Source: Flavobacterium sp. 1
Lineage (GTDB): Bacteria; Bacteroidota; Bacteroidia; Flavobacteriales; Flavobacteriaceae
Length of the DNA stretch: 64,000 nucleotides
Direction of reading: 5' to 3'
Assembly (NCBI RefSeq): GCF_002797935.1
Contig: NZ_PGER01000001.1
Location: 744,001 to 808,000 of the forward strand
The notes under the pieces were generated by a model. The model ran no database searches. It was not told where the DNA came from and saw only the letters and a list, made by a program, of their open reading frames with translations. A program made the translations under genes and the position numbers. Shown piece after piece: positions 36,257 through 52,981 of this stretch (position 1 is the stretch's first letter; each line of letters begins with the position of its first letter).

Positions 36257-37299
36257 CATGACTATCCGTAACTAATACCAAGTTGTTTCTAAGGCAGCAA
36301 TCATAAGCCTCTGAGATAGTCTATCTCCAAAATATCTTCTGTTAAATTTGTAACAGAACTCGTCGAGATAATTTTGTACATATTGTTGATTTATACAATT
36401 GTGGTGGATTCCTAAAATCACTTTCTTTGCATTACTGATTGTTCTATTTACCCAAGGAAAAACTTTTGCAGATTTCTTCTTGTCAGGCTCTACAACAACC
36501 TGATGTTTTGCTATTACTTCTTTTAGTTTAGAATATCCTGTATAGCCATCGGAGAGTACAGAAGCTGTTTTTTCTACTGACTTCTGAACCTCTTTATTAA
36601 TTGTTTCGGACTTCAAATCCTCCATGACAACCATTTTCAAGTAGCCTACTTTCCTGTTTGGTTTTCCTTTTTTTGGCGCAGAAATACTAGGTTCAGATTC
36701 TACCATCACTAGCACTTTTGCTTGTCTTTCACTCCCACGACCTCTTTTGCCTTGTTTAGGATTGTCACCATTGTTATCATCTTTGTCGTCTATAACATCT
36801 TTGTTGTCAACTCTTTCAAAGAATCCTTCGTCAAATTCAATGCAACCCTCCAATTTATATTTCTCATCACGTTTACTCATTACTCTGCGTATTTTGTGCA
36901 TCATTAACCAAATTGGTTCATAACGCTTGTGCCCCAAGATACGTTGCATTTCTAATGCTGAAAAACTCTTTTTTGAGAGCGTCATAAGTTCAATGCAAAG
37001 CATCCAATATTGGAAAGGTAAATTCGAATTTTCCATTACCGTTCCTGAGCGAAGACTAATTCGGCTACCACACTTTTTACATTGAAATTTTAAATCAGTT
37101 TTACGAAAAGAATGCTCTGTGTGTTGGCATTTTTTGCAGACAATACCCATTTCAAGACGTTTTTTCTTGAAGCCTTCAATACAAGAAGCTTCATCAGGAT
37201 ATTTTTCAAAGAATTTACGCAAATTCATAACTGTTTAGTTTTTATTCTGCCACGAATATAAGGTAATTAAACAAAAGGTACAAGTTGCGGATAGTCATA
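36257..37299 (-). mobile_element. IS1595-family insertion sequence, complete
   Basis: A 1043-bp element with terminal inverted repeats CATGACTATCCGTAACT (left) and TATGACTATCCGCAACT (right, reverse complement), one intact transposase gene and an exact 8-bp target duplication. The clean duplication indicates a relatively recent insertion. It landed in the maturase relic of a group II intron. Confidence 0.88.
36272..37228 (-). CDS. IS1595-family (ISXO2-like) transposase
   Basis: About 318 residues. An N-terminal zinc ribbon, CKKCQHTEHSF and CKKCGSRISLRSGTVMENS, is followed by the ISXO2-like DDE domain: EFDEGFFERV (first acidic residue), LSDGYTGYSKLK (second), and the C-terminal LDEFCYKFNRRYFGDR, the 'EFxxRxNRR' signature of this family with its Asn/Glu catalytic position. 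The domain order and length match complete members, so the enzyme is probably functional. Confidence 0.9.
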   Translation of the reverse strand: MNLRKFFEKYPDEASCIEGFKKKRLEMGIVCKKCQHTEHSFRKTDLKFQCKKCGSRISLRSGTVMENSNLPFQYWMLCIELMTLSKKSFSALEMQRILGHKRYEPIWLMMHKIRRVMSKRDEKYKLEGCIEFDEGFFERVDNKDVIDDKDDNNGDNPKQGKRGRGSERQAKVLVMVESEPSISAPKKGKPNRKVGYLKMVVMEDLKSETINKEVQKSVEKTASVLSDGYTGYSKLKEVIAKHQVVVEPDKKKSAKVFPWVNRTISNAKKVILGIHHNCINQQYVQNYLDEFCYKFNRRYFGDRLSQRLMIAALETTWY

Positions 37300-37843: not shown

Positions 37844-37891
37844 TCAATGTTGTTATTTTGCTTTGTGGGTGTTTTCAATGACTGGTAACGT

Positions 37892-38000
37892 CAGTCTGTG
37901 AAAAAACTAAAATCTGCCTCCTGAGAATCTCATATTTGAGTTTTTTCTTTGGTAGCCCTCCGAATACTTTCTAAATTTGAAGAGGTTTTTTCACAGACTG
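37892..38000. repeat. 109-bp MITE in attC4 (copy 1)
   Basis: Terminal inverted repeats CAGTCTGTGAAAAAAC / GTTTTTTCACAGACTG (16 bp perfect), flanked by the 4-base duplication ACGT at 37888-37891 and 38001-38004. There is no coding capacity. It sits exactly at the cassette boundary, between the first bases of cassette 5 and the rest of the attC. Confidence 0.75.
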
Positions 38001-38006
38001 ACGTTC

Positions 38007-38015
38007 TGGTACTAC
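38007..38015 (+). other. left attC half abutting IS110 copy 1 (predicted left target)
   Basis: TGGTACTAC is the last attC sequence before the IS. It is identical to nine bases in the target loop of the element's predicted bridge RNA (38082-38090). Confidence 0.7.
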
Positions 38016-38054
38016 CTTTAGATTTGCATAATAAATTATTCGTAAATTTAAATT

Positions 38055-38210
38055 AACAGCCAAACTGACAAAGTACACCATTGGTACTACAAAGTTTTTA
38101 GACTTATCCGCTGATTAGGACTTTGTCAGTTTATATTGAACAAGCATCAAATAGTAATTCAGGTTTTAAGGCCTATTATCAAGGTTACGAGTGTGTTCAA
38201 TAATTTGGTT
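38055..38210 (+). ncRNA. predicted bridge RNA of IS110 copy 1
   Basis: Two long hairpins lie in the left non-coding end. Target loop: stem AAACTGACAAAGT / ACTTTGTCAGTTT (38062-38074 / 38120-38132) enclosing TGGTACTAC (38082-38090), identical to the left flank of the IS, and CCGCTG (38108-38113), complementary to the right flank CAGCGG (CAGTGG here, a G-U pair). Donor loop: stem ATTGAACA / TGTTCAAT (38135-38142 / 38194-38201) enclosing ATAGTAAT (38151-38158), identical to the last 8 bases of the IS, and AAGG (38168-38171), complementary to CCTT at the left end. This is the layout known for IS110 bridge RNAs. RNA ends are approximate. Confidence 0.75.
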
Positions 38211-38233
38211 GCTAATCCTTAAAATCTTTTCTT

Positions 38234-39235
38234 ATGAGCAAATTTAAACATTTTTTAGGTGTTGATGTGTCAAAAGAATATTTTGATGCCGTAGTAATTT
38301 TGGATAGAAATAAAGAAAAATCAATTCACAGCCAGTTTGTAAATGATTACAAAGGAATCAAGTCCCTTTGCAAATGGCTCAAGGAACAAGGTTCCACGTT
38401 TGAAAACACGCTTGTTTGTTTAGAACACACAGGAATGTACGGCAAGTTAATAATCAAATGTCTAATGATTGAAAAGTTCTCACTTTGGGTCGAAATGTCA
38501 CTGAAAATTATTCGCAGCATTGGGGTTCAAAGAGGCAAAAACGACAAAGTTGATGCCCAAAGAATTGCTTTTTATGCCATGAAAAATGTGGAGGAAGCAG
38601 TTATTTTTAATGCTCCGAGAATGGAAATCAACAAAATGAGAAATCTTTTGTCCCTGCGGGAAAAATTAGTTGCAACAAAAGCTTCTTTGTTGCGAAATGT
38701 AAAAGAACTCAAAGCCTTTGATTTGGAAGTAGCCAGACTTTCTGAAAAACTACAGAAAAGCACCATCAAGGGAATTGATTTGGGTCTAAAAAACATTGAA
38801 AAACAATTGGACAAAACAATAAATGACGATGAAAATATTTCTAGAATTTTCACTCTTGTCACATCTGTTATTGGCATCGGAAAAGTAACGGCTTTGTTTT
38901 TGATTTGTTTTACAAACGAATTTACAATGTATAGAACTCCTCGCCAACTGGCTTGTTATGCAGGTGTTGTACCTTTTGAACATACCTCGGGGAAAAGTAT
39001 TCGCTCAAAACCAAAAGTCCATTATGTGGCTAACAAAAAATTAAAAAAACAGCTTCATATGTGTGCCTTGTCAGCAATTACCAGTGATCCTGAATTAAAA
39101 AATTATTTTAATCGAAAGGTGGAAGAAGGTAAAAACAAGATGCTTATCATAAACAATGTTAGGAACAAACTTGTACATAGAGTATGTGCATGCATAAGAG
39201 AAAACAAAATGTTTGAAAAAAGACAAGTAGCGTAA
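38234..39235 (+). CDS. IS110-family transposase (DEDD recombinase), copy 1
   Basis: 333 residues. N-terminal RuvC-like DEDD domain: FLGVDVSKEYFDAVV (Asp), LVCLEHTGMYG (Glu), RGKNDKVDAQRIA (Asp-Asp). A coiled-coil linker (about 135-185) leads to the Tnp_20 domain: SVIGIGKVTALFLIC, RQLACYAGVVPFEHTSGKS with the catalytic Ser, and KKLKKQLHMCALSAI. Such recombinases use a bridge RNA to choose target and donor. Three residues differ from the second copy (for example Gly versus Asp in DLxLKN). Confidence 0.92.
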   Translation: MSKFKHFLGVDVSKEYFDAVVILDRNKEKSIHSQFVNDYKGIKSLCKWLKEQGSTFENTLVCLEHTGMYGKLIIKCLMIEKFSLWVEMSLKIIRSIGVQRGKNDKVDAQRIAFYAMKNVEEAVIFNAPRMEINKMRNLLSLREKLVATKASLLRNVKELKAFDLEVARLSEKLQKSTIKGIDLGLKNIEKQLDKTINDDENISRIFTLVTSVIGIGKVTALFLICFTNEFTMYRTPRQLACYAGVVPFEHTSGKSIRSKPKVHYVANKKLKKQLHMCALSAITSDPELKNYFNRKVEEGKNKMLIINNVRNKLVHRVCACIRENKMFEKRQVA

Positions 39236-39391
39236 AAAAAACATTAAATAAAATTTCTTTTGAAAGGAAAGAGAAAAAAATGCTCTTCCCCTTCGCAAGA
39301 CTTTTTTGTTTTTCCTAAACCAAAGTTATTAATTATTCGCAAAAAATAGATGGCTTTTTTACGAATTTTTATTTGGTAATGCCATAGTAAT

Positions 39392-39505
39392 CAGTGGGTT
39401 TGGGGTTAAATTAAGCCCATTCTTCGGATTTGCCAAATCATCCCAAATACAAAACCATCTTTCTATTAAGCCAATTGCTCAAATCCGTTGTACCTGTTAG
39501 CAGTA
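39392..39505 (-). other. attC4, main part, ending cassette 4 (interrupted by IS110 copy 1)
   Basis: The - strand reads TACTGCTAAC (39505-39496), complementary to the first ten bases of cassette 4 (GTTAGCAGTA, 40143-40134), then the same 110-base body as the intact attC1, up to CCACTG, where the IS enters. The missing 12 bases lie at 38004-38015. Confidence 0.78.
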
Positions 39506-39516
39506 GCTTTTTTTAT

Positions 39517-39816
39517 TTATTCCGCTAATCGGTTTTCAATATCCATTCTTTCGTGTAAAACTCTAACGACTTCAATTTCATTTGTTTTATCTTTTTTAAA
39601 GAAAATTAAATGTGATTTTACTTTTGAGTATCGATATGATTTTCTAACTTTTCCAAAGTCATGAGCCATATCTAAATTATCGACAATATATTCAATTTCG
39701 TCAATGATTAAGTTATAATATCGATCTGCTTGTTCAACAGACCAATTTTCCGCCGTATAAATCCAAATGTTATTAATATCTTCTAATGCCTTTTCACTAA
39801 TTATATACTTTGGCAT
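39517..39816 (-). CDS. parE: ParE/RelE-superfamily toxin
   Basis: 99 residues. The ParE pattern is clear: YIISEKALEDINNIWIYTAENW, QADRYYNLIIDEIEYIVDN, YRYSKVKSHLIFFKKDK and VVRVLHERMDIENRL. ParE toxins inhibit DNA gyrase; related RelE folds cut mRNA, so the exact target is open. It overlaps the antitoxin gene by one base and forms cassette 4 with it. Such pairs stabilise integron arrays in other bacteria. Confidence 0.88.
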   Translation of the reverse strand: MPKYIISEKALEDINNIWIYTAENWSVEQADRYYNLIIDEIEYIVDNLDMAHDFGKVRKSYRYSKVKSHLIFFKKDKTNEIEVVRVLHERMDIENRLAE

Positions 39817-40061
39817 TATTTTTGAAAATTAGCTTTTAGCATTTCAAGATTTTTATTACGGTCAAAATTTCTGATTTTACTACTCTTTTCACCAATTTTT
39901 AGTTCATTGATTAGAGATTTTGTTTTAGTTTCTTCTTGCTCAAAAACTCTTAAAGCAGTTCTAACAACTTCACTTACTGAACTATATTTCCCTGTAGATA
40001 TTTGTTCATTAATAAAGTTTTCAAAATAGTCTCCTAATAATATTGATGTATTACGTGCCAT
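39816..40061 (-). CDS. parD: ParD-like ribbon-helix-helix antitoxin
   Basis: 81 residues from the ATG at 40061. It begins MARNTSILLGDYFENFINEQ and continues GKYSSVSEVVRTALRVFEQEE, the classical ParD/CopG-type ribbon-helix-helix N-terminus, followed by the toxin-neutralising tail. A perfect palindrome just upstream is its likely operator. The order antitoxin-toxin with a one-base overlap is standard. Confidence 0.87.
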   Translation of the reverse strand: MARNTSILLGDYFENFINEQISTGKYSSVSEVVRTALRVFEQEETKTKSLINELKIGEKSSKIRNFDRNKNLEMLKANFQK

Positions 40062-40081
40062 GATTTTTATTTTTACCAAAG

Positions 40082-40098
40082 ATACCAATAATTGGTAT
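40082..40098 (-). promoter_or_regulatory. palindromic operator of the parDE pair
   Basis: ATACCAAT-A-ATTGGTAT, a perfect 17-base palindrome, begins 21 bases before the antitoxin start. It is within the cassette, so the pair can carry its own promoter. Confidence 0.75.
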
Positions 40099-40145
40099 TA
40101 AATTCAAATTTTTTCGATTTTTTGAGCAAAAGTTACTGCTAACGT

Positions 40146-40254
40146 CAGTCTGTGAAAAAACTAAAATCTGCCTCCTGAGAATCTCATATTTGAGTTTTTT
40201 CTTTGACAGCCCTCCGAATACTTTCTAAATTTAAAGTAGTTTTTTCACAGCCTG
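40146..40254. repeat. 109-bp MITE in attC3 (copy 2)
   Basis: Same length, position and ACGT flanks (40142-40145 and 40255-40258) as the copy at 37892-38000, with a handful of substitutions, including one in the right inverted repeat. Confidence 0.72.
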
Positions 40255-40308
40255 ACGTTCTGATACTACCTTTAGATTTGCATAATAAATTATTCGTAAA
40301 TTTAAATT

Positions 40309-40464
40309 AACAGCCAAACTGACAAAGTACACCATTGGTACTACAAAGTTTTTAGACTTATCCGCTGATTAGGACTTTGTCAGTTTATATTGAACAAGCA
40401 TCAAATAGTAATTCAGGTTTTAAGGCCTATTATCAAGGTTACGAGTGTGTTCAATAATTTGGTT
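40309..40464 (+). ncRNA. predicted bridge RNA of IS110 copy 2
   Basis: Identical loops to copy 1: stem AAACTGACAAAGT / ACTTTGTCAGTTT from 40316, target guides TGGTACTAC and CCGCTG, donor guide ATAGTAAT. The right guide pairs perfectly with the flank CAGCGG; the left guide has one mismatch to the flank TGATACTAC. Confidence 0.73.
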
Positions 40465-40487
40465 GCTAATCCTTAAAATCTTTTCTT

Positions 40488-41489
40488 ATGAGCAAATTTA
40501 AACATTTTTTAGGTATCGATGTGTCAAAAGAATATTTTGATGCCGTAGTAATTTTGGATAGAAATAAAGAAAAATCAATTCACAGCCAGTTTGTAAATGA
40601 TTACAAAGGAATCAAGTCCCTTTGCAAATGGCTCAAGGAACAAGGTTCCACGTTTGAAAACACGCTTGTTTGTTTAGAACACACAGGAATGTACGGCAAG
40701 TTAATAATCAAATGTCTAATGATTGAAAAGTTCTCACTTTGGGTCGAAATGTCACTGAAAATTATTCGCAGCATTGGGGTTCAAAGAGGCAAAAACGACA
40801 AAGTTGATGCCCAAAGAATTGCTTTTTATGCCATGAAAAATGTGGAGGAAGCAGTTATTTTTAATGCTCCCAGAATGGAAATCAACAAAATGAGAAATCT
40901 TTTGTCCCTGCGGGAAAAATTAGTTGCAACAAAAGCTTCTTTGTTGCGAAATGTAAAAGAACTCAAAGCCTTTGATTTGGAAGTAGCCAGACTTTCTGAA
41001 AAACTACAGAAAAGCACCATCAAGGGAATTGATTTGGATCTAAAAAACATTGAAAAACAATTGGACAAAACAATAAATGACGATGAAAATATTTCTAGAA
41101 TTTTCACTCTTGTCACATCTGTTATTGGCATCGGAAAAGTAACGGCTTTGTTTTTGATTTGTTTTACAAACGAATTTACAATGTATACAACTCCTCGCCA
41201 ACTGGCTTGTTATGCAGGTGTTGTACCTTTTGAACATACCTCGGGGAAAAGTATTCGCTCAAAACCAAAAGTCCATTATGTGGCTAACAAAAAATTAAAA
41301 AAACAGCTTCATATGTGTGCCTTGTCAGCAATTACCAGTGATCCTGAATTAAAAAATTATTTTAATCGAAAGGTGGAAGAAGGTAAAAACAAGATGCTTA
41401 TCATAAACAATGTTAGGAACAAACTTGTACATAGAGTATGTGCATGCATAAGAGAAAACAAAATGTTTGAAAAAAGACAAGTAGCGTAA
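40488..41489 (+). CDS. IS110-family transposase (DEDD recombinase), copy 2
   Basis: 333 residues with the same DEDD and Tnp_20 motifs as copy 1; residues 10 (Ile for Val), one in DLDLKN and one in MYTTP differ. The frame is intact, so both copies may be active. The gene runs opposite to the cassette genes around it. Confidence 0.92.
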   Translation: MSKFKHFLGIDVSKEYFDAVVILDRNKEKSIHSQFVNDYKGIKSLCKWLKEQGSTFENTLVCLEHTGMYGKLIIKCLMIEKFSLWVEMSLKIIRSIGVQRGKNDKVDAQRIAFYAMKNVEEAVIFNAPRMEINKMRNLLSLREKLVATKASLLRNVKELKAFDLEVARLSEKLQKSTIKGIDLDLKNIEKQLDKTINDDENISRIFTLVTSVIGIGKVTALFLICFTNEFTMYTTPRQLACYAGVVPFEHTSGKSIRSKPKVHYVANKKLKKQLHMCALSAITSDPELKNYFNRKVEEGKNKMLIINNVRNKLVHRVCACIRENKMFEKRQVA

Positions 41490-41645
41490 AAAAAACATTA
41501 AATAAAATTTCTTTTGAAAGGAAAGAGAAAAAAATGCTCTTCCCCTTCGCAAGACTTTTTTGTTTTTCCTAAATCAAAGTTATTAATTATTCGCAAAAAA
41601 TAGATGGCTTTTTTACGAATTTTTATTTGGTAATGCCATAGTAAT

Positions 41646-41762
41646 CAGCGGGTTTGGGACTAAATTAAGCCCATTCTTCGGATTTGCCAAATCATCACAA
41701 ATACAAAACCAACTTTCCATTAAGACAATTGCCCAAATCCGTTGTAGTAGCTGTTGTATGCT
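41646..41762 (-). other. attC3, main part, ending cassette 3 (interrupted by IS110 copy 2)
   Basis: The - strand begins AGCATACAAC (41762-41753), the complement of cassette 3's first ten bases GTTGTATGCT (42354-42345), and then follows the attC body to CCCGCTG at the IS junction. The remaining attC bases are at 40258-40269, next to the MITE. Confidence 0.8.
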
Positions 41763-41764
41763 GT

Positions 41765-42328
41765 TTATTTTCGCCCAATAGTTTTATGTCTCCAAACTTC
41801 ATATAGATAACAATCTGCGTGATGTTCTTCGGGATTATTTTTAATCAGTTCAATTTGAACTTTTTTTGCTTTATTGTAATCTGAAATTAGTCCGTATTGA
41901 TTTAGTTCTTGAGGTAAAAATGTTTCATCAAAACCTCCACAATTTGTCAACGCACTAACATCTCCATCTTTTTCGACCAAATCATAACCTATAAAATCAT
42001 ATTCAGAATTCAAATTAGCATTCTCGCTTTTAGGCTCTTTAATGACCGCCAATAAATTAAAATATTTTAAGTCTTTTACTTTTTCCAAAACGTAATCAAC
42101 AGAATTGAAAAATACAGTAACCACATTTTGGTCAGTAACAATATATTTCCATTCAGTTTCAGAATCAAAATCTGGCATAAAGGATAAATCATTTAAAATC
42201 CCATCTAATGAAACTAATTCTTTCAGTTGATAAAGTTTAGACCATTCCAAATAGTTTTGCCAACTGAATCCTGAATTATATTCTGAATCGTATGTATTTC
42301 TTGCTGTAAATAAAATTTCTCTTTCCAT
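41765..42328 (-). CDS. hypothetical protein of cassette 3
   Basis: 187 residues, acidic and probably cytoplasmic. Distinct segments are NTYDSEYNSGFSWQNYLEWS near the start and LTNCGGFDETFLPQELNQYG, then HHADCYLYEVWRHKTIGR at the end. I do not recognise the family. It fills cassette 3 almost completely, with 26 bases from the cassette start to the ATG and the stop next to the attC, as is usual for integron cassettes. Confidence 0.72.
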   Translation of the reverse strand: MEREILFTARNTYDSEYNSGFSWQNYLEWSKLYQLKELVSLDGILNDLSFMPDFDSETEWKYIVTDQNVVTVFFNSVDYVLEKVKDLKYFNLLAVIKEPKSENANLNSEYDFIGYDLVEKDGDVSALTNCGGFDETFLPQELNQYGLISDYNKAKKVQIELIKNNPEEHHADCYLYEVWRHKTIGRK

Positions 42329-42347
42329 TCAGGTTCTTATAAATAGC

Positions 42348-42482
42348 ATACAACGTCCCCGCGCTACAAGAAGTTTGGGGCTAAATCAGCGTAATCTTTC
42401 GGATTTGCCAAATCTTTCAAATACAAACCAATTTTTCCATTAATCCAAATGCCCAAATTGCTTGTAGCGTGTGTTATGCCTA
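42348..42482 (-). other. attC2, intact attC-like site between cassettes 2 and 3
   Basis: The - strand opens with TAGGCATAAC (42482-42473), exactly complementary to cassette 2's first ten bases (GTTATGCCTA, 44918-44909), and closes at GTTGTATG, the start of cassette 3. Between them CGCTACAAGCAATTTGGG pairs with CCCCAAACTTCTTGTAGCG, giving a long imperfect stem. The architecture (R''-L''-loop-L'-R') is that of an integron attC site. Confidence 0.82.
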
Positions 42483-42490
42483 GTGCTTTT

Positions 42491-42865
42491 TTATTTATCG
42501 GTATATGAAAATGATTGTGGAGCTGTTAAACCATATTTTTCCATAATATTATAGGTTTTATTATATCGTTTAAAGTTCTTAATCTTTATAGCGTACCCTT
42601 TTTCTTTATTTGCAAAATATTCATCAAAAAAACTTTTATCAACAGCATTAAATTCTTTTGTTTTTTTCCAAAGTGTTGTAATTTCTTCGTGAATTATTCC
42701 ATCAATTTCAAATTCTCCAATTATTCTACTAATTGGAGAAGACGCATATATAATCACGGTTTTTATATTGGGAACTTTAAATATTGATTTTCTAAGTTCA
42801 TATGTCTTTTCTCCATTTAGGATTTTTTCTGCATAGTAAGGTTTAATCGACAATATAACTTTCAT
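42491..42865 (-). CDS. ASCH-domain protein
   Basis: 124 residues. The ASCH fold is marked by VILSIKPYYAEKILNGEKTY, ELRKS, and IIGEFEIDGIIHEE. ASCH domains are PUA-like RNA-binding modules, sometimes with amidohydrolase activity. The gene overlaps the upstream PIN-GNAT gene by 23 bases and is the last gene of cassette 2. Its partner also ends in a PUA-like domain, so RNA or modified nucleotides may be the shared substrate. Confidence 0.78.
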   Translation of the reverse strand: MKVILSIKPYYAEKILNGEKTYELRKSIFKVPNIKTVIIYASSPISRIIGEFEIDGIIHEEITTLWKKTKEFNAVDKSFFDEYFANKEKGYAIKIKNFKRYNKTYNIMEKYGLTAPQSFSYTDK

Positions 42866-44351
42866 TTGCTTTTGCTTCTTTTAAAAATTCTTCAAATTTA
42901 ATCTTTTCAATTTGAACGAAACCTCTTGGTACATCATTAATTGATTTTATGATCCCTAATTCAATTAGTTTATCTAAATTAATTTTTGGTTTTGGAAATG
43001 AATCAACGTAGAGAAAATTTACAATAAAAGGTCTGCTATATCTATTATAATTCCACCATTTTTTTAATTCATTATCATCAAATACGCTTCTCTTTCTACA
43101 TAATCTGATGAAATCTTCTTCATTCGATATATTTAATATCACATTTTCAACAACACCAATTGTAGATAGAACCCCTGCATATCTACCACCAGTTCTATAA
43201 AATAAAATTATATCTCCGGGTTTCAAATCTCTAGTATAAGACCGAGATATATAAACTTTTTTTAAAGCATTTCTATGTGGTTCATTTTCTATATAATCCT
43301 GTGGGGATTCATTATTAAGTATCGAATCGGGAAATAATTCTGTATGATAATCAGGCCATATCGGATTTATAAATACTCGTGATTTTCGGTCAATAAAAGG
43401 AAAACATTCTCTTGGATTTTCTAATATGGTTTTTGAAAAATCCCTGACATAAACATTTTCAATTCCATTTGTTGTATCTTTTGTTCCCCAATATTTGAAG
43501 CCCCATTCCTCTAAAAGACTAACCAGTCTTTGTTGTTCTTCTCTTTTGTCAAAAATTGTAACATATATTTCATCAACTTTATTTACTAGCGCATTATCAA
43601 AAATTACCTTTAAGAATCTTTCACCTAACTTATAACCAGTAGATGTAACTTTGAATGTTCCGATTTTTAATCTTTTCTTTGATGAGAAAGCAGGAATTAT
43701 ATCTCTGTAGTTTTCATCTGAATTTTCTATTTTTAAAAACAAAAATGCTTTTACTTCGTTTTCTACTAGACAAATATAGGATTCCTTATCAGCTTTTGAA
43801 TTAAACCACTTCTCAAATTCAGCATAATCTTCTTTAAAAGAATTGAAAAAATCATCTTTAAGATTTATATTTCCAAAGTATTCTTTCTTAACTGAAAGTA
43901 CTTTGTAGTCGGAAAGACCTGGATTTTCAAAAACTAATTTTTCAATGAAAGAGTCTATTTTGTAAACTTTATCAGAAATACCTAGTTCTTTTGCCTTTCT
44001 ATGAAGGCCTTTATCTTCTGTTATTAGGTAATTTACCCGATTATTTACTAATTCATTTAAAATTGAGGTGTCGTTCGTGTCATTAATTGATTTGTCACTT
44101 AACCTTAATTGTGTAATTACTTCTGAATCTGGAGAAATAGTTTTTAAAACATTATAGTTTTCAATTTTAACTTTCATTGTATTGACTACATCCTCATCTT
44201 TATAAGTTGAAATTTCATCAATAGATACTGGATGAACGCATTTTTCAAAGTGCATTTTGTCAAGCCAATTAAATAGTAATCCAATATCTTGATTATATAT
44301 TTTACTGGCTTCTCTATGTACAATAATATTAGTATCTAAAAGTATTCTCAT
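42843..44351 (-). CDS. PIN-GNAT-EVE/PUA-like multidomain protein
   Basis: 502 residues in three parts. Residues 1-140: PIN nuclease-like domain (RILLDTNIIVHRE; TNDTSILNELV; NYLITEDKGLHRKAKELG) with the acidic residues of the metal site. About 150-310: GNAT-acetyltransferase-like region (ICLVENEVKAFLFLKI, KRLKIGTFKVTSTGYKLGER, LLEEWGFKYWG). About 320-500: EVE/PUA-like domain (SRSYTRDLKPGDIILFYRTG, YAGVLSTIGVVENVI). The order suggests a toxin- or defence-like protein acting on RNA. It overlaps both neighbours by 4 and 23 bases. Confidence 0.75.
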   Translation of the reverse strand: MRILLDTNIIVHREASKIYNQDIGLLFNWLDKMHFEKCVHPVSIDEISTYKDEDVVNTMKVKIENYNVLKTISPDSEVITQLRLSDKSINDTNDTSILNELVNNRVNYLITEDKGLHRKAKELGISDKVYKIDSFIEKLVFENPGLSDYKVLSVKKEYFGNINLKDDFFNSFKEDYAEFEKWFNSKADKESYICLVENEVKAFLFLKIENSDENYRDIIPAFSSKKRLKIGTFKVTSTGYKLGERFLKVIFDNALVNKVDEIYVTIFDKREEQQRLVSLLEEWGFKYWGTKDTTNGIENVYVRDFSKTILENPRECFPFIDRKSRVFINPIWPDYHTELFPDSILNNESPQDYIENEPHRNALKKVYISRSYTRDLKPGDIILFYRTGGRYAGVLSTIGVVENVILNISNEEDFIRLCRKRSVFDDNELKKWWNYNRYSRPFIVNFLYVDSFPKPKINLDKLIELGIIKSINDVPRGFVQIEKIKFEEFLKEAKANESYIVD

Positions 44352-44866
44352 TTCAAAAAATATAAAAGGGTTTCTATTTCTAATTGTTCACTATTTATTA
44401 TATGAAGTGGGATTTCTAAAATCTCGCTTATATCTGTTGCAAAGTTTATTTCTAGATTTTGAAACTCCTCAATTATATCAATGTCATATGTCTTTGCATC
44501 TCTTTTTTCAAGACGTTTTTTAATTGTTTCTGGATTAGCAATAACAAGAATTAATTTTTTTGGATTAATATCTTTAAAAGTTTGGATAGGAATTTTTTCG
44601 GGTTTTCCATGATTGTTTAATAAGCAATAATGACCGTCTAATAAATATGTTTTATTTTCTTCAACTATTTTATTTAAGTTGATTACAAGTCGATTTTGAG
44701 TTTCATTAATATTTGTTACTAATTTTTCTTCTTTGGTACTTAATTCATTCCACTTTAAAACTTCGCTAGCCGTTAAATGTATTAAATCTATTTTGTTTTT
44801 CAGAGTTTCGCAGATTGTTCCTTTTCCACTTCCGTGAATTCCTCCTATGAATATAATATTTTTCAT
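44348..44866 (-). CDS. AAA-family / adenylate-kinase-like ATPase
   Basis: 172 residues with a Walker A motif IFIGGIHGSGKGTICETL at the N-terminus, then LLDGHYCLL and KLILVIANPETIKKRLEKRD, matching the P-loop small-molecule kinase fold (AAA_33/ADK-like). It is the first gene of the three-gene cassette 2, with its ATG 52 bases inside the cassette start. The substrate is unknown. The kinase, PIN-GNAT-EVE and ASCH genes overlap in series and should work together. Confidence 0.75.
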   Translation of the reverse strand: MKNIIFIGGIHGSGKGTICETLKNKIDLIHLTASEVLKWNELSTKEEKLVTNINETQNRLVINLNKIVEENKTYLLDGHYCLLNNHGKPEKIPIQTFKDINPKKLILVIANPETIKKRLEKRDAKTYDIDIIEEFQNLEINFATDISEILEIPLHIINSEQLEIETLLYFLK

Positions 44867-44911
44867 TTGTTACGATAGGTTATTGAATCCTCTGATTTTT
44901 TTTAGCATTAG

Positions 44912-45046
44912 GCATAACGTTCTGGCACTACAGCGGGTTTGGGACTAAATTAAGCCCTATTTTCGGATTTGCCAAATCATCCCAAATACAAAACCAACTT
45001 TCCATTAAGCCTAATGCCCAAATCCGTTGTAGTGGCTGTTGGCGGT
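44912..45046 (-). other. attC1, intact attC-like site between cassettes 1 and 2
   Basis: The - strand begins ACCGCCAAC (45046-45038), complementary to the first nine bases of cassette 1 (GTTGGCGGT, 45580-45572). Then CACTACAACGGATTTGGG pairs with CCCAAACCCGCTGTAGTG across a loop of about 75 bases, and the site closes AGAAC-GTTATGCC at the start of cassette 2. This is the best-preserved copy and serves as the reference for the interrupted ones. Confidence 0.85.
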
Positions 45047-45054
45047 TCGGTTTT

Positions 45055-45528
45055 TTATTCAGTTACTATTTTCACGTTTGTTCCGTCTGGTAGATCTTTA
45101 ATTTGCTTGTGAATTTGTCCGCTTAATTCAAAATGGACTTCTATATCAGTTAATTCAAAATTTTCAGGTTCATATTCTCCGCCTAAAACAGGAAGTTTTT
45201 TATAGCCATAAAGATTATTTTCGGTTAATTCCATTCCCGCTTTTTTTAGCTCCGCGACAAGTTCAACTAAAAACCATTCATTTACAATTTCGTTATCGGT
45301 TAGTTTCTCTTTAAATTCAGTTTTGTTTTCAGCAACTTTTTCAAGTATTCCCTCTCCAACATTTAACCAATAACACTTTTCATTTCTGTCTTCGAGAAAT
45401 ATATCTCCAATACTCGAAACTAAAATTGGAGTTTTGTCATTTCCAATTAGCCAATCCCAACTTTCTATTAATCTTTTTAAATCGATATGTGTAAAATCAA
45501 CTTTTAAATCGTTCCAAGTAATTTTCAT
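45055..45528 (-). CDS. DUF1851 / Tdi1-like immunity-domain protein (cassette 1)
   Basis: 157 residues from the ATG at 45528 (an upstream in-frame TTG would start inside the recombination site). The core NDKTPILVSSIGDIFLEDRN, CYWLNVGEGILEKVAENKTE resembles the DUF1851/T6SS-immunity Tdi1 C-terminal domain, with the 'G-D-x-F ... YWLN-x-G' pattern. Such proteins occur as immunity factors or as SMI1/KNR4-like singles. It is the first cassette next to the integrase and the one most likely to be expressed from an array promoter. Confidence 0.65.
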   Translation of the reverse strand: MKITWNDLKVDFTHIDLKRLIESWDWLIGNDKTPILVSSIGDIFLEDRNEKCYWLNVGEGILEKVAENKTEFKEKLTDNEIVNEWFLVELVAELKKAGMELTENNLYGYKKLPVLGGEYEPENFELTDIEVHFELSGQIHKQIKDLPDGTNVKIVTE

Positions 45529-45580
45529 ATTTGATATATTATGTTTGGTTATCGTTGTGTTCGGTAAACTGACCGCCAAC

Positions 45581-45682: not shown

Positions 45683-46726
45683 TTACAAATCATCAAAGGG
45701 ACTTTTTATTAGTTGGATGCTTTTCGTACTAACGTGAGTGTAGATTTCTGTTGTTTTGCTGCTGTTGTGTCCCAATAGTTCTTGAATGTAGCGCAAATCG
45801 GTGCCGTTTTCCAGTAAGTGTGTGGCAAAACTGTGACGTAGCCAATGTAGTGTGACAGGTTTGGTTATTCCTACTTTATCTAGGGCTTGTTTCAAAACAC
45901 TTTGTAAGCTGTATTCTGAGTATGGCTCACCACCAAATTTCCCTTCAAATAAATAGGTAGTAGGTTTGTGGGCAACATAATAGTCCCGAAGCATGGCTAA
46001 GATTTTATTTGATAGCGGCGCAATCCGGTCTTTCTTTCCCTTGCTTTGTCTTATAATTACGATCCCTCTTTTGGAGTCAATATCTGTGGGTTTTAAATGT
46101 AAGAGTTCGCTTCGGCGCAATCCACAAGCATAAATTAAACTCAACATCGTTTTGTGTTTGAGGTTGCTGTGTGCATTCAATATCAGTTTTACTTCCTCTT
46201 TGCTCAAAACATTGGGGAGTAATTTTTCTCGTTTCGGACGGTGAATTTTGTCTATTTCTATTTTTGTTTCCCTAATGGTAGAGAAAAATAATTTTATGGA
46301 ATTGACGATTTGGTTTTGATAGGAACCAGATAATTTATTGCTTAAAATATATTCGTTATTGTATCGAATGACATCGTTATTGTTAATTTCGGCAACTGCT
46401 TTGTCGTTGTAAAAAGTCAGAAAGGTTTTTAAAGCTTCGGTATAGGTAGTTATGGTGCTATTGCTGTAACGTCTTGATAATAGCCAGTGCTTGAATTTTT
46501 CTATTTGTGCAATTCCTTCTGCCGAAGGACGCTTGATTGGTGCTTCGGTAATTTGAAATAATATTCTGTTTTCAAAGGTGTCCGGCAAATGCCAAACTCC
46601 TAATGTTTGACTCCATCTTGAGCCTTCTTGTTGTTTGATGCGATCAATCCAATCGTAGTTTTTTTCAAAATAAATGGCAATTCGGCTCTCTCCATTGCGT
46701 TTGATGAGTTGTGCTTTCCAGTTCAT
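45683..46726 (-). CDS. integron-integrase-like / Xer-type tyrosine recombinase
   Basis: 347 residues from the ATG at 46726. Residues 1-70 are an extra N-terminal region (IAIYFEKNYDWIDRIKQQEG, RWSQTLGVWHLPDT), then a SAM-like core-binding domain and the catalytic domain. All catalytic residues are visible: Arg in CGLRRSELLHL, Lys in GKKDR, HWLRHSFATHLLENG (HxxR), LLGHNS, and the Tyr in TTEIYTHVS. It ends SPFDDL, similar to the SPLD end of IntI proteins. The extra helix insertion before the HxxR motif that marks classical IntI is not evident. It is upstream of, and parallel to, the cassettes. Confidence 0.85.
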   Translation of the reverse strand: MNWKAQLIKRNGESRIAIYFEKNYDWIDRIKQQEGSRWSQTLGVWHLPDTFENRILFQITEAPIKRPSAEGIAQIEKFKHWLLSRRYSNSTITTYTEALKTFLTFYNDKAVAEINNNDVIRYNNEYILSNKLSGSYQNQIVNSIKLFFSTIRETKIEIDKIHRPKREKLLPNVLSKEEVKLILNAHSNLKHKTMLSLIYACGLRRSELLHLKPTDIDSKRGIVIIRQSKGKKDRIAPLSNKILAMLRDYYVAHKPTTYLFEGKFGGEPYSEYSLQSVLKQALDKVGITKPVTLHWLRHSFATHLLENGTDLRYIQELLGHNSSKTTEIYTHVSTKSIQLIKSPFDDL

Positions 46727-46950
46727 AAGGCGTATAATTATTGTAAAGGCATATAGTTGAATTATAAAGATAAGGAAAAGATTTGAGATTGTAGAAAACA
46801 GAAAGTTCAAGGGATAAGTTTAATTTAAAGAATTGACATAAAGTTTCAATATAAAGAATTCTTCAATTTTTGTCTTCCTGAGAGAGGAAGGATCTTTGCA
46901 AGAATATCGAGAGGAATTGGATTGAAGAAATAGATTTTTTATTGATTTTT

Positions 46951-52697: not shown

Positions 52698-52830
52698 TTT
52701 GGGCGTGCCCCTACGTAAAAACTTCGGGTCGTGCTGTACGTTTCCGCTTTTTTTCTGTTCAATTACCCCGGATTTGGACCCGAGGTAATTGAACAGAAAA
52801 AAGAGCTCCACTGCCATCACTCACGCAAAT
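52698..52830 (+). repeat. dispersed flavobacterial repeat, copy R2, with a very long hairpin
   Basis: Opens TTTGGGCGTGCCC and closes CTCACGCAAAT, as in the other copies. Inside is a 19-20-bp hairpin (arms 52748-52767 and 52784-52803, arm core CTGTTCAATTACC) with T-rich and A-rich ends, suitable as a bidirectional terminator. It separates the NrtA-like gene from the nitrate reductase promoter. Apart from this and the operator nothing else is seen between 52438 and 52981. Confidence 0.75.
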
Positions 52831-52981
52831 TTTAACCAATTCAGTTAATCTGTGTAATTTTAGGAAAATAACCACAAAAAAACCTGAAGCATCAGTAAAG
52901 ACACATCAGGCATTTTAAAGAATAAAAATTTGTTTTTGGTGGTATTGTTTTCTTTGTATTTGTAAAGGGAGAGAAACAGAA

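Follow-up and report, generated by a model that had tools for sequence, protein, structure and literature searches.

A predicted bridge RNA that likely guides a Flavobacterium IS110-group element to attC-like sites

In the published account of IS621 and the IS110 group, these elements combine a DEDD transposase with a longer left non-coding end that carries a target loop and a donor loop, with the left guide preceding the right guide (PMC11208160). IS110 elements are described as forming a promoter where their two ends are joined (PMC11208160, PMC11187229) and as placing the bottom-strand match 5′ of the top-strand match (PMC11187229), and in the TIGR-Tas paper the bridge RNA of IS110 is one unit with two stems (PMC12045711). 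Insertion at attC sites has been described for the IS1111 branch, in which an RNA guides ISKpn4, ISPst6, and ISPa25 into one end of attC sites (PMC11187229). We analyzed a 64,000-nucleotide stretch of a Flavobacterium genome (the window; bases 744001-808000 of genome G000, a single 5.35-Mb contig) that contains an IS110-group insertion sequence. We consider it highly probable that the left end of this element, predicted to be a bridge RNA, pairs both with attC-like sites and with the joined ends of the element itself, directing the DEDD transposase there. Steering by a bridge RNA is likely because the guides match both flanks and because relatives with other guides mostly sit at correspondingly different sites. 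The mechanism itself is already known, and by its sequence the window element joins the IS110 bridge-RNA elements. A search of the open-licence full-text literature found no IS110-branch element at attC, a weak negative with subscription papers and ISfinder outside its scope.

The element is present twice in the window. Copy A spans 38016..39391 on the plus strand (1,376 bp), with one C that is common to both junctions and can be assigned to 38015 or 39392. Copy B, of the same length and with the same guides, spans 40270..41645 on the plus strand between the flanks TGATACTAC and CAGCGG. Scoring of all 10 candidates in G000 gave five near-identical copies and one partial copy. The partial copy L006 (G000:C1:519865-520233) is 75-78% identical, and its guides and left flank differ from those of the window element. 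Both window copies encode a 333-aa transposase with DEDD_Tnp_IS110 and Transposase_20 Pfam domains; in copy A, the gene lies at 38234..39235 (plus strand). The copy A protein scores 144.3 bits against NF033542, "IS110 family RNA-guided transposase" (NCBI cut-off 140), and its sole significant relatives among solved structures are IS621 (86 bits) and ISCro4. Residues D11, E64, D104, D107, and S255 align with IS621 residues, and we take these D, E, D, D, and Ser positions to have catalytic roles.

The architecture of the element separates it from the known attC-targeting branch. In IS1111 elements, the RNA is described as lying downstream of the transposase gene; the guide order is reversed, and the subterminal inverted repeats are longer, at 7-17 bp (PMC11187229). 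In the window element, by contrast, the two-loop structure and guides lie upstream, in the left end that we folded, rather than in a downstream RNA region; the guides follow the IS110 order; and no conserved long repeat was seen in the 20 of 32 types checked. One 9-bp subterminal inverted repeat was found in this element, with 13 of 200 shuffles giving one as long, and was dropped because it is unconserved among those relatives. The non-coding ends are unequal (218 bases on the left, 156 on the right). The left-end RNA, guide order, and unequal ends therefore place the element in the IS110 group and not in IS1111, which bears out the distinction drawn in an earlier, sequence-only reading of this locus. 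Compared with IS621 as published (PMC11208160), the window element differs in having an attC-like target, a core of one C instead of CT, and a predicted Bacteroidota-type promoter instead of a sigma-70 promoter.

The left-end non-coding region (38016..38233, plus strand) is predicted to be the bridge RNA from its fold and covariation. It forms a target-binding hairpin (38062..38132, plus strand), with compensatory changes in the outer stem and a small apical hairpin, and a donor-binding hairpin (38134..38202, plus strand) that likewise rests on fold and covariation. The sequence-only reading had proposed two hairpin loops here and a check by folding and covariation over homologues, and in 15 homologues both are conserved with a signal above shuffles. 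The fold has a z of -2.5, with 3 of 200 shuffles as good. A 40-pair structure derived from one of the 15 aligned left ends is paired in 88.5% of the alignment's cells, compared with 81.7 in shuffles, and 17 of its 40 pairs change on both sides (shuffled mean 8.8, 0/500 as high; slid controls, 3-7). Further pair types number 23, fewer than in shuffles (mean 27.7), and the closing stem is weak: both sides change in 1 of its 10 pairs, and seven depart by unpaired cells alone. A covariance model from a mixed hairpin alignment was set aside because its 3′ arm was misaligned by one base. At Rfam gathering thresholds, no bridge-RNA family matched; the one match was Flavo-1 RNA (52723-52831, minus strand), above its gathering score.

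Both hairpins carry sequences that correspond to the DNA they would bind. The predicted guides for the target lie in an internal loop, the left guide (bottom-strand match) 5′ of the right guide (top-strand match). The left target guide TGGTACTAC (38082..38090, plus strand) equals the left flank of copy A (38007..38015, plus strand), as had been read from the sequence. The right target guide CCGCTG (38108..38113, plus strand) complements the right flank. The guide is where the sequence-only reading saw it, but the flank of copy A is CAGTGG and not the CAGCGG named there, so CCGCTG pairs at this copy with one G-U wobble; CAGCGG is exact in 11 of the 12 same-guide copies, copy B included. The left donor guide ATAGTAAT (38151..38158, plus strand) is a copy of the last eight bases of the element (39384..39391, plus strand), again in agreement with the earlier reading. 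The second loop's AAGG is also complementary to the left-end CCTT, as claimed, but AAGG occurs twice in that loop. The meaningful copy is the right donor guide at 38181..38184 (plus strand), invariant in 15 of 15 left ends, and the other (38168-38171) falls within a small variable hairpin. Since AAGG/CCTT never varies across these aligned ends, it is not usable for covariation. Mean entropy is 1.47 bits at the 13 guide positions compared with 0.55 elsewhere in the left end (P 6e-8), and of the 20 left-end positions that vary most, just 6 belong to the guides.

What are the sites to which this RNA would direct the element? An IntI-like/XerA-like tyrosine recombinase, identified by profile matches (45683..46810, minus strand), heads an array on the minus strand. 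It is followed by genes (39517-45579, minus strand) for a Tdi1-type T6SS immunity domain, an AAA kinase-like, PIN-like (below the Pfam cut-off), and ASCH group, an unassigned 187-aa product, and ParD-ParE. An IS1595-family transposase adjoins the array (36272-37228, minus strand). The first cassette starts directly after the recombinase gene, and all four cassettes examined by eye have complementary ends of 8-10 bases placed where attC theory expects (GTTGGCGG/CCGCCAAC, GTTATGCC/GGCATAAC, GTTGTATGC/GCATACAAC, and GTTAGCAGTA/TACTGCTAAC). As judged from these ends, the repeats follow integron cassette logic. The sequence-only reading had called the target an integron attC, and the cassette logic stands; the neighboring recombinase, however, lacks the IntI-specific insert. 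Model positions 177-238 are unmatched, and between the two aligned parts there are 60 residues in IntI4 compared with 18 in the window recombinase. The insert is presented as a defining integron trait in a paper that also reports integrons in Bacteroidota (PMC9668308). We therefore write "attC-like" and "integron-like".

These observations bear on the possibility that the repeats are ordinary dispersed palindromes rather than cassette recombination sites, so that "attC" would be a misnomer. Such a reading would fit the missing insert and the recombinase score of 209 bits against an integron-integrase cut-off of 265, as well as the location of some repeats far from any integrase-like match and the DNA fold of the empty site, which gave no signal above shuffles (z -0.15). 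It fits poorly with the complementary ends of four out of four cassettes, the first of them beginning just past the recombinase gene, and with a recombinase that scores above the cut-off of NF040815, "site-specific tyrosine recombinase/integron integrase". Moreover, the three best-scoring integrase-like genes of G000 adjoin repeats; two of them lie near 4.81 Mb, and one has an internal stop codon. On balance, we regard this possibility as unlikely, and we treat the repeats as attC-like in what follows.

The 12 full-length copies with the same guides all sit at one position of the attC-like repeat, (T/C)ACTAC-CAG(C/T)GGG, where the hyphen marks the junction. Five are in G000 and seven in G259, where all 13 candidates were scored. 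The site rule was made on ten copies, and L163 and L164 were read after it had been fixed. At the L164 junction, CACTAA replaces CACTAC, so the shared C is not universal. The insertion point falls within one arm of the predicted cassette hairpin and is 14 bases away from where the cassettes presumably cross over. The sequence-only reading had named the same loops at unrelated sites as evidence against it; in these 12 copies, the same loops go with the same site.

Unoccupied repeats provide a comparison. In G000, 40 of 75 candidates for the attC-like repeat were scored, giving at least 40 matches; 30 of these were given loci, and after removal of one false match, 27 unoccupied sites were obtained. 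Nine of them fit the guides (score ≥12 of 14) and 18 do not, including two that are one base shorter (TGGTACTC-AGCGG) and were classed as non-fitting. The commonest non-fitting form is CGCGCTAC-AAGCAG, and a guide-mismatched cassette site reads TCGCGCTAC-AAGCAG. The window holds the attC-like body to the right of copy A (CAGTGGGTTTGGGG..., 39392..39502, plus strand), the unoccupied site TGGCACTAC-AGCGGG (44905..45050, minus strand), and an unoccupied site of the non-matching class (42366..42480, minus strand). In G000, 5 of 14 guide-fitting sites are occupied compared with 0 of 18 non-fitting sites (Fisher P 0.01, at a threshold chosen after the scores were known). A guide match is insufficient for insertion, since nine matching attC-like sites are empty.

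If the left end is a guide RNA, then guides and targets should change together. Loci were drawn from 398 genus-sample genomes (68 with a match at 1e-20), in which loci were taken for the best-matching genomes alone and weaker relatives were left out, and from 397 family-sample genomes (12 at 1e-60), the two samples partly overlapping; two named contigs and 20 hand-chosen copies were added. The sources of the named relatives are a Flavobacteriia MAG, a Flavobacterium MAG, and a Flavobacterium plasmid. From 72 oriented loci, 15 were dropped because an end was unrecognized or too close to the contig end, and the 57 with both ends fell into 32 types by left-end similarity. Left flanks match their own left end at a mean of 7.53 of 9 positions (cross-comparisons, 5.93) and right flanks at 6.13 of 7 (4.92), values that 0 of 20,000 permutations reached on either side. 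When the best match anywhere in the element's own left end is taken, the left flank reaches 8-9 of 9 in 19 of 32 types and the right flank 7 of 7 in 13 of 32. For example, L046 has flanks TTTGTGGGC and CACAGAA and guides TTTGTGGGC and TTCTGTG; L049 has flanks CTTCTATC and CAGGGC and guides CTTCTATC and GCCCTG; and L053 has flanks GTAGGGGC and CGAATTA and guides GTAGGGGC and TAATTCG. A plasmid match was rejected as an independent site because it is the same element with the same flanks as L046. Loops that failed to covary with targets had been named as the result that would count against the target-loop/donor-loop reading, and the permutations instead support it: different loops go with different sites.

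The correspondence is not perfect, as about a quarter of the 32 types match poorly on one side, and all of these were retained in the permutation test. The left flank scores at most 6 of 9 in nine types (L074, L048, L047, L084, L055, L086, L058, L106, and L073) and the right flank at most 5 of 7 in eight (L001, L048, L084, L086, L102, L082, L092, and L070); L048, L084, and L086 are poor on both sides. In L074, L047, and L055, the right side fits and the left fits partly, as if one base were looped out. L054 scores 7 and 6, yet off the guide slots, and the low right score of L001 arises because its representative carries the CAGTGG variant. A left-end DNA search of 295 relatives of G259 gave matches in five genomes, broken copies among them, and none of these entered the test. 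The left flank of the broken relative L141, also outside the test, does not fit its guide; the left flanks of the broken copies L144 and L146 end in GGCAAT and TGCAAT, and their guides end in GGCAAT. A pattern search of viral contigs returned 11 stretches, and none had the left-end hairpin after filtering.

The closest pair shows how few changes accompany a new site. The L074 transposase is 90% identical to that of the window element, and across the 219-base left end the two differ at 17 positions, seven of which fall among the 15 guide bases (P 2e-5). The flanks of L074 differ from those in the window: the right flank is CGGGG, as its guide CCCCCG requires, and the left fits in part. Natural reprogramming between relatives of IS110 type has also been described for ISEc21 and ISMch6, in which the target is linear and lies in IS3 elements and the transposases are 72% identical (PMC11187229).

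The donor side behaves similarly. The left donor guide tracks the right-end variants ATAGTAAT, ATAGTTAT, ATAGAAAT, ATAGAAT, and ATAGGAT, with a mean match of 7.34 of 8 to the element's own end compared with 6.48 in cross-comparisons (0/20,000 permutations as high; several match at 7 of 8). This test is not fully independent because the right-end patterns were compiled after the ends had been read. The right end of L055 (ATAGTTGT) matches its own donor loop inexactly. L057, outside the donor test, has CCGTT at its left end and AACGG in its donor loop, in place of the CCTTT and AAAGG of its relatives; as read from these sequences, it is a single instance of the right donor guide changing in step with the left end.

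Could the transposase protein alone read the folded cassette site, with the left-end matches playing no part? Integron integrases recognize structure through protein, and the target here lies within one arm of a predicted hairpin. Under such a mechanism, however, relatives with other guides would not be expected at different sites that by and large fit their guides, nor insertions confined to the guide-matching class of site, and the DNA of the site itself folds no better than shuffles. We therefore think recognition by protein alone very unlikely. Less credible still is that the loops arose by chance or were captured from flanking DNA. Matches of 6-9 bases do arise by chance, and the window has 13 occurrences of TGGTACTAC (≤1 mismatch) where 5.1 are expected; five of the 13 are accounted for by the guides and flanks of the two elements and by the empty site. 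The matches, however, lie mostly in fixed slots of a covarying hairpin, are specific to their own flanks, and cover both target strands in the order reported for IS110, and the flank permutation test counts against this reading so long as the ends were called correctly.

We therefore return to guidance by a left-end bridge RNA, for which the following sequence of events can be proposed. The element would excise as a circle, and its joined ends would assemble a Bacteroidota-type promoter, comprising TTTG (39372..39375, plus strand, predicted -33 half), 20 bases, and TAGATTTG (38019..38026, plus strand, predicted -7 half), that would be complete in the circle only and is classed as Bacteroidota-type by its consensus. 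In 28 of 32 types, the circle junction has a TTG that precedes a TAnTTTG/TAnnTTTG motif by 19-21 bases. These conserved ends could instead serve transposase binding. The junction promoter would drive the RNA and the transposase, the bridge RNA would pair with both strands of an attC-like site, and the RNA-transposase complex would exchange strands around the shared C, between TGGYACTA and AGCGGG. Insertion would then split the promoter again and so limit further jumps.

Targeting of attC-like sites may not be confined to this lineage. Two loci of a distant IS110 lineage (L071 and L072; 34-35% identical) sit at AACGTTTTGC and AACGTTCCGC and carry the guides AAACGTTTTGT and AAAACGTTCCGT. Judged by eye, their site, AACGTTYYGC, appears to be the crossover core in a different sequence class of attC-like sites. 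The left guides differ as their two targets differ, and the right flanks fit less well. Both loci were outside the permutation test, as their right ends were unrecognized. From these sequences, attC tropism is likely, rather than certain, to have originated a second time.

Some relatives have more than one target hairpin. At five loci in three lineages defined by identity (L075; L057; L098-L100), two or three target hairpins stand in tandem before one donor hairpin, in left ends of approximately 350-450 bases. The tandem hairpins carry similar guides, and the folds range in z from -0.5 to -4.0, not all better than shuffles. Folding was applied to named hairpins in place of a regex search for hairpin repeats, whose output was too noisy. 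The arrangement suggests a possible multi-guide bridge RNA. TIGR-Tas systems are described with a related RNA-binding domain and tandem guide logic, to which these relatives with two or three target hairpins are alike; TIGR-Tas does not transpose, and the window element has a single target hairpin (PMC12045711).

Taken together, these loci lead us to a tentative proposal that we think has something over one chance in three: flavobacterial IS110 elements may have been programmed onto attC at least twice, independently of IS1111, once onto the stem arm seen here and once, in the 35%-identical lineage, onto the core AACGTTYYGC. They may retarget by swapping or duplicating whole target hairpins, with arrays of two or three before one donor hairpin acting as a multi-guide bridge RNA. 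Near-identical transposases with few guide changes and new sites offer a natural reprogramming series, at sites that are themselves recombination machinery. Two ideas become testable: that bridge-RNA elements evolve to sit in cassette arrays, where insertions may do little harm and copies might be carried along on cassettes, and that attC targeting arose separately in the IS110 and IS1111 branches. The series further draws attention to Bacteroidota recombinases whose guides can be read, and to multi-hairpin relatives.

Two further repeats were seen in the vicinity of attC-like sites. A 118-bp palindromic unit (GTCAGTCTGTG...CAGACTGAC) lies beside attC-like sites at 37884-38003 and 40138-40257, upstream of both copies. 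We rejected it as proof of a common ancestral insertion because G000 contains 26 matches to it, of which 19 are near full length and some are arranged in tandem. From their sequence, these units would be either gene-less cassettes or a small mobile repeat. Finally, another IS110 type (L065 and L088-L091; 37% identity) sits at CACCCGAGC-GATAG, a short repeat found within some attC-like sites and elsewhere.
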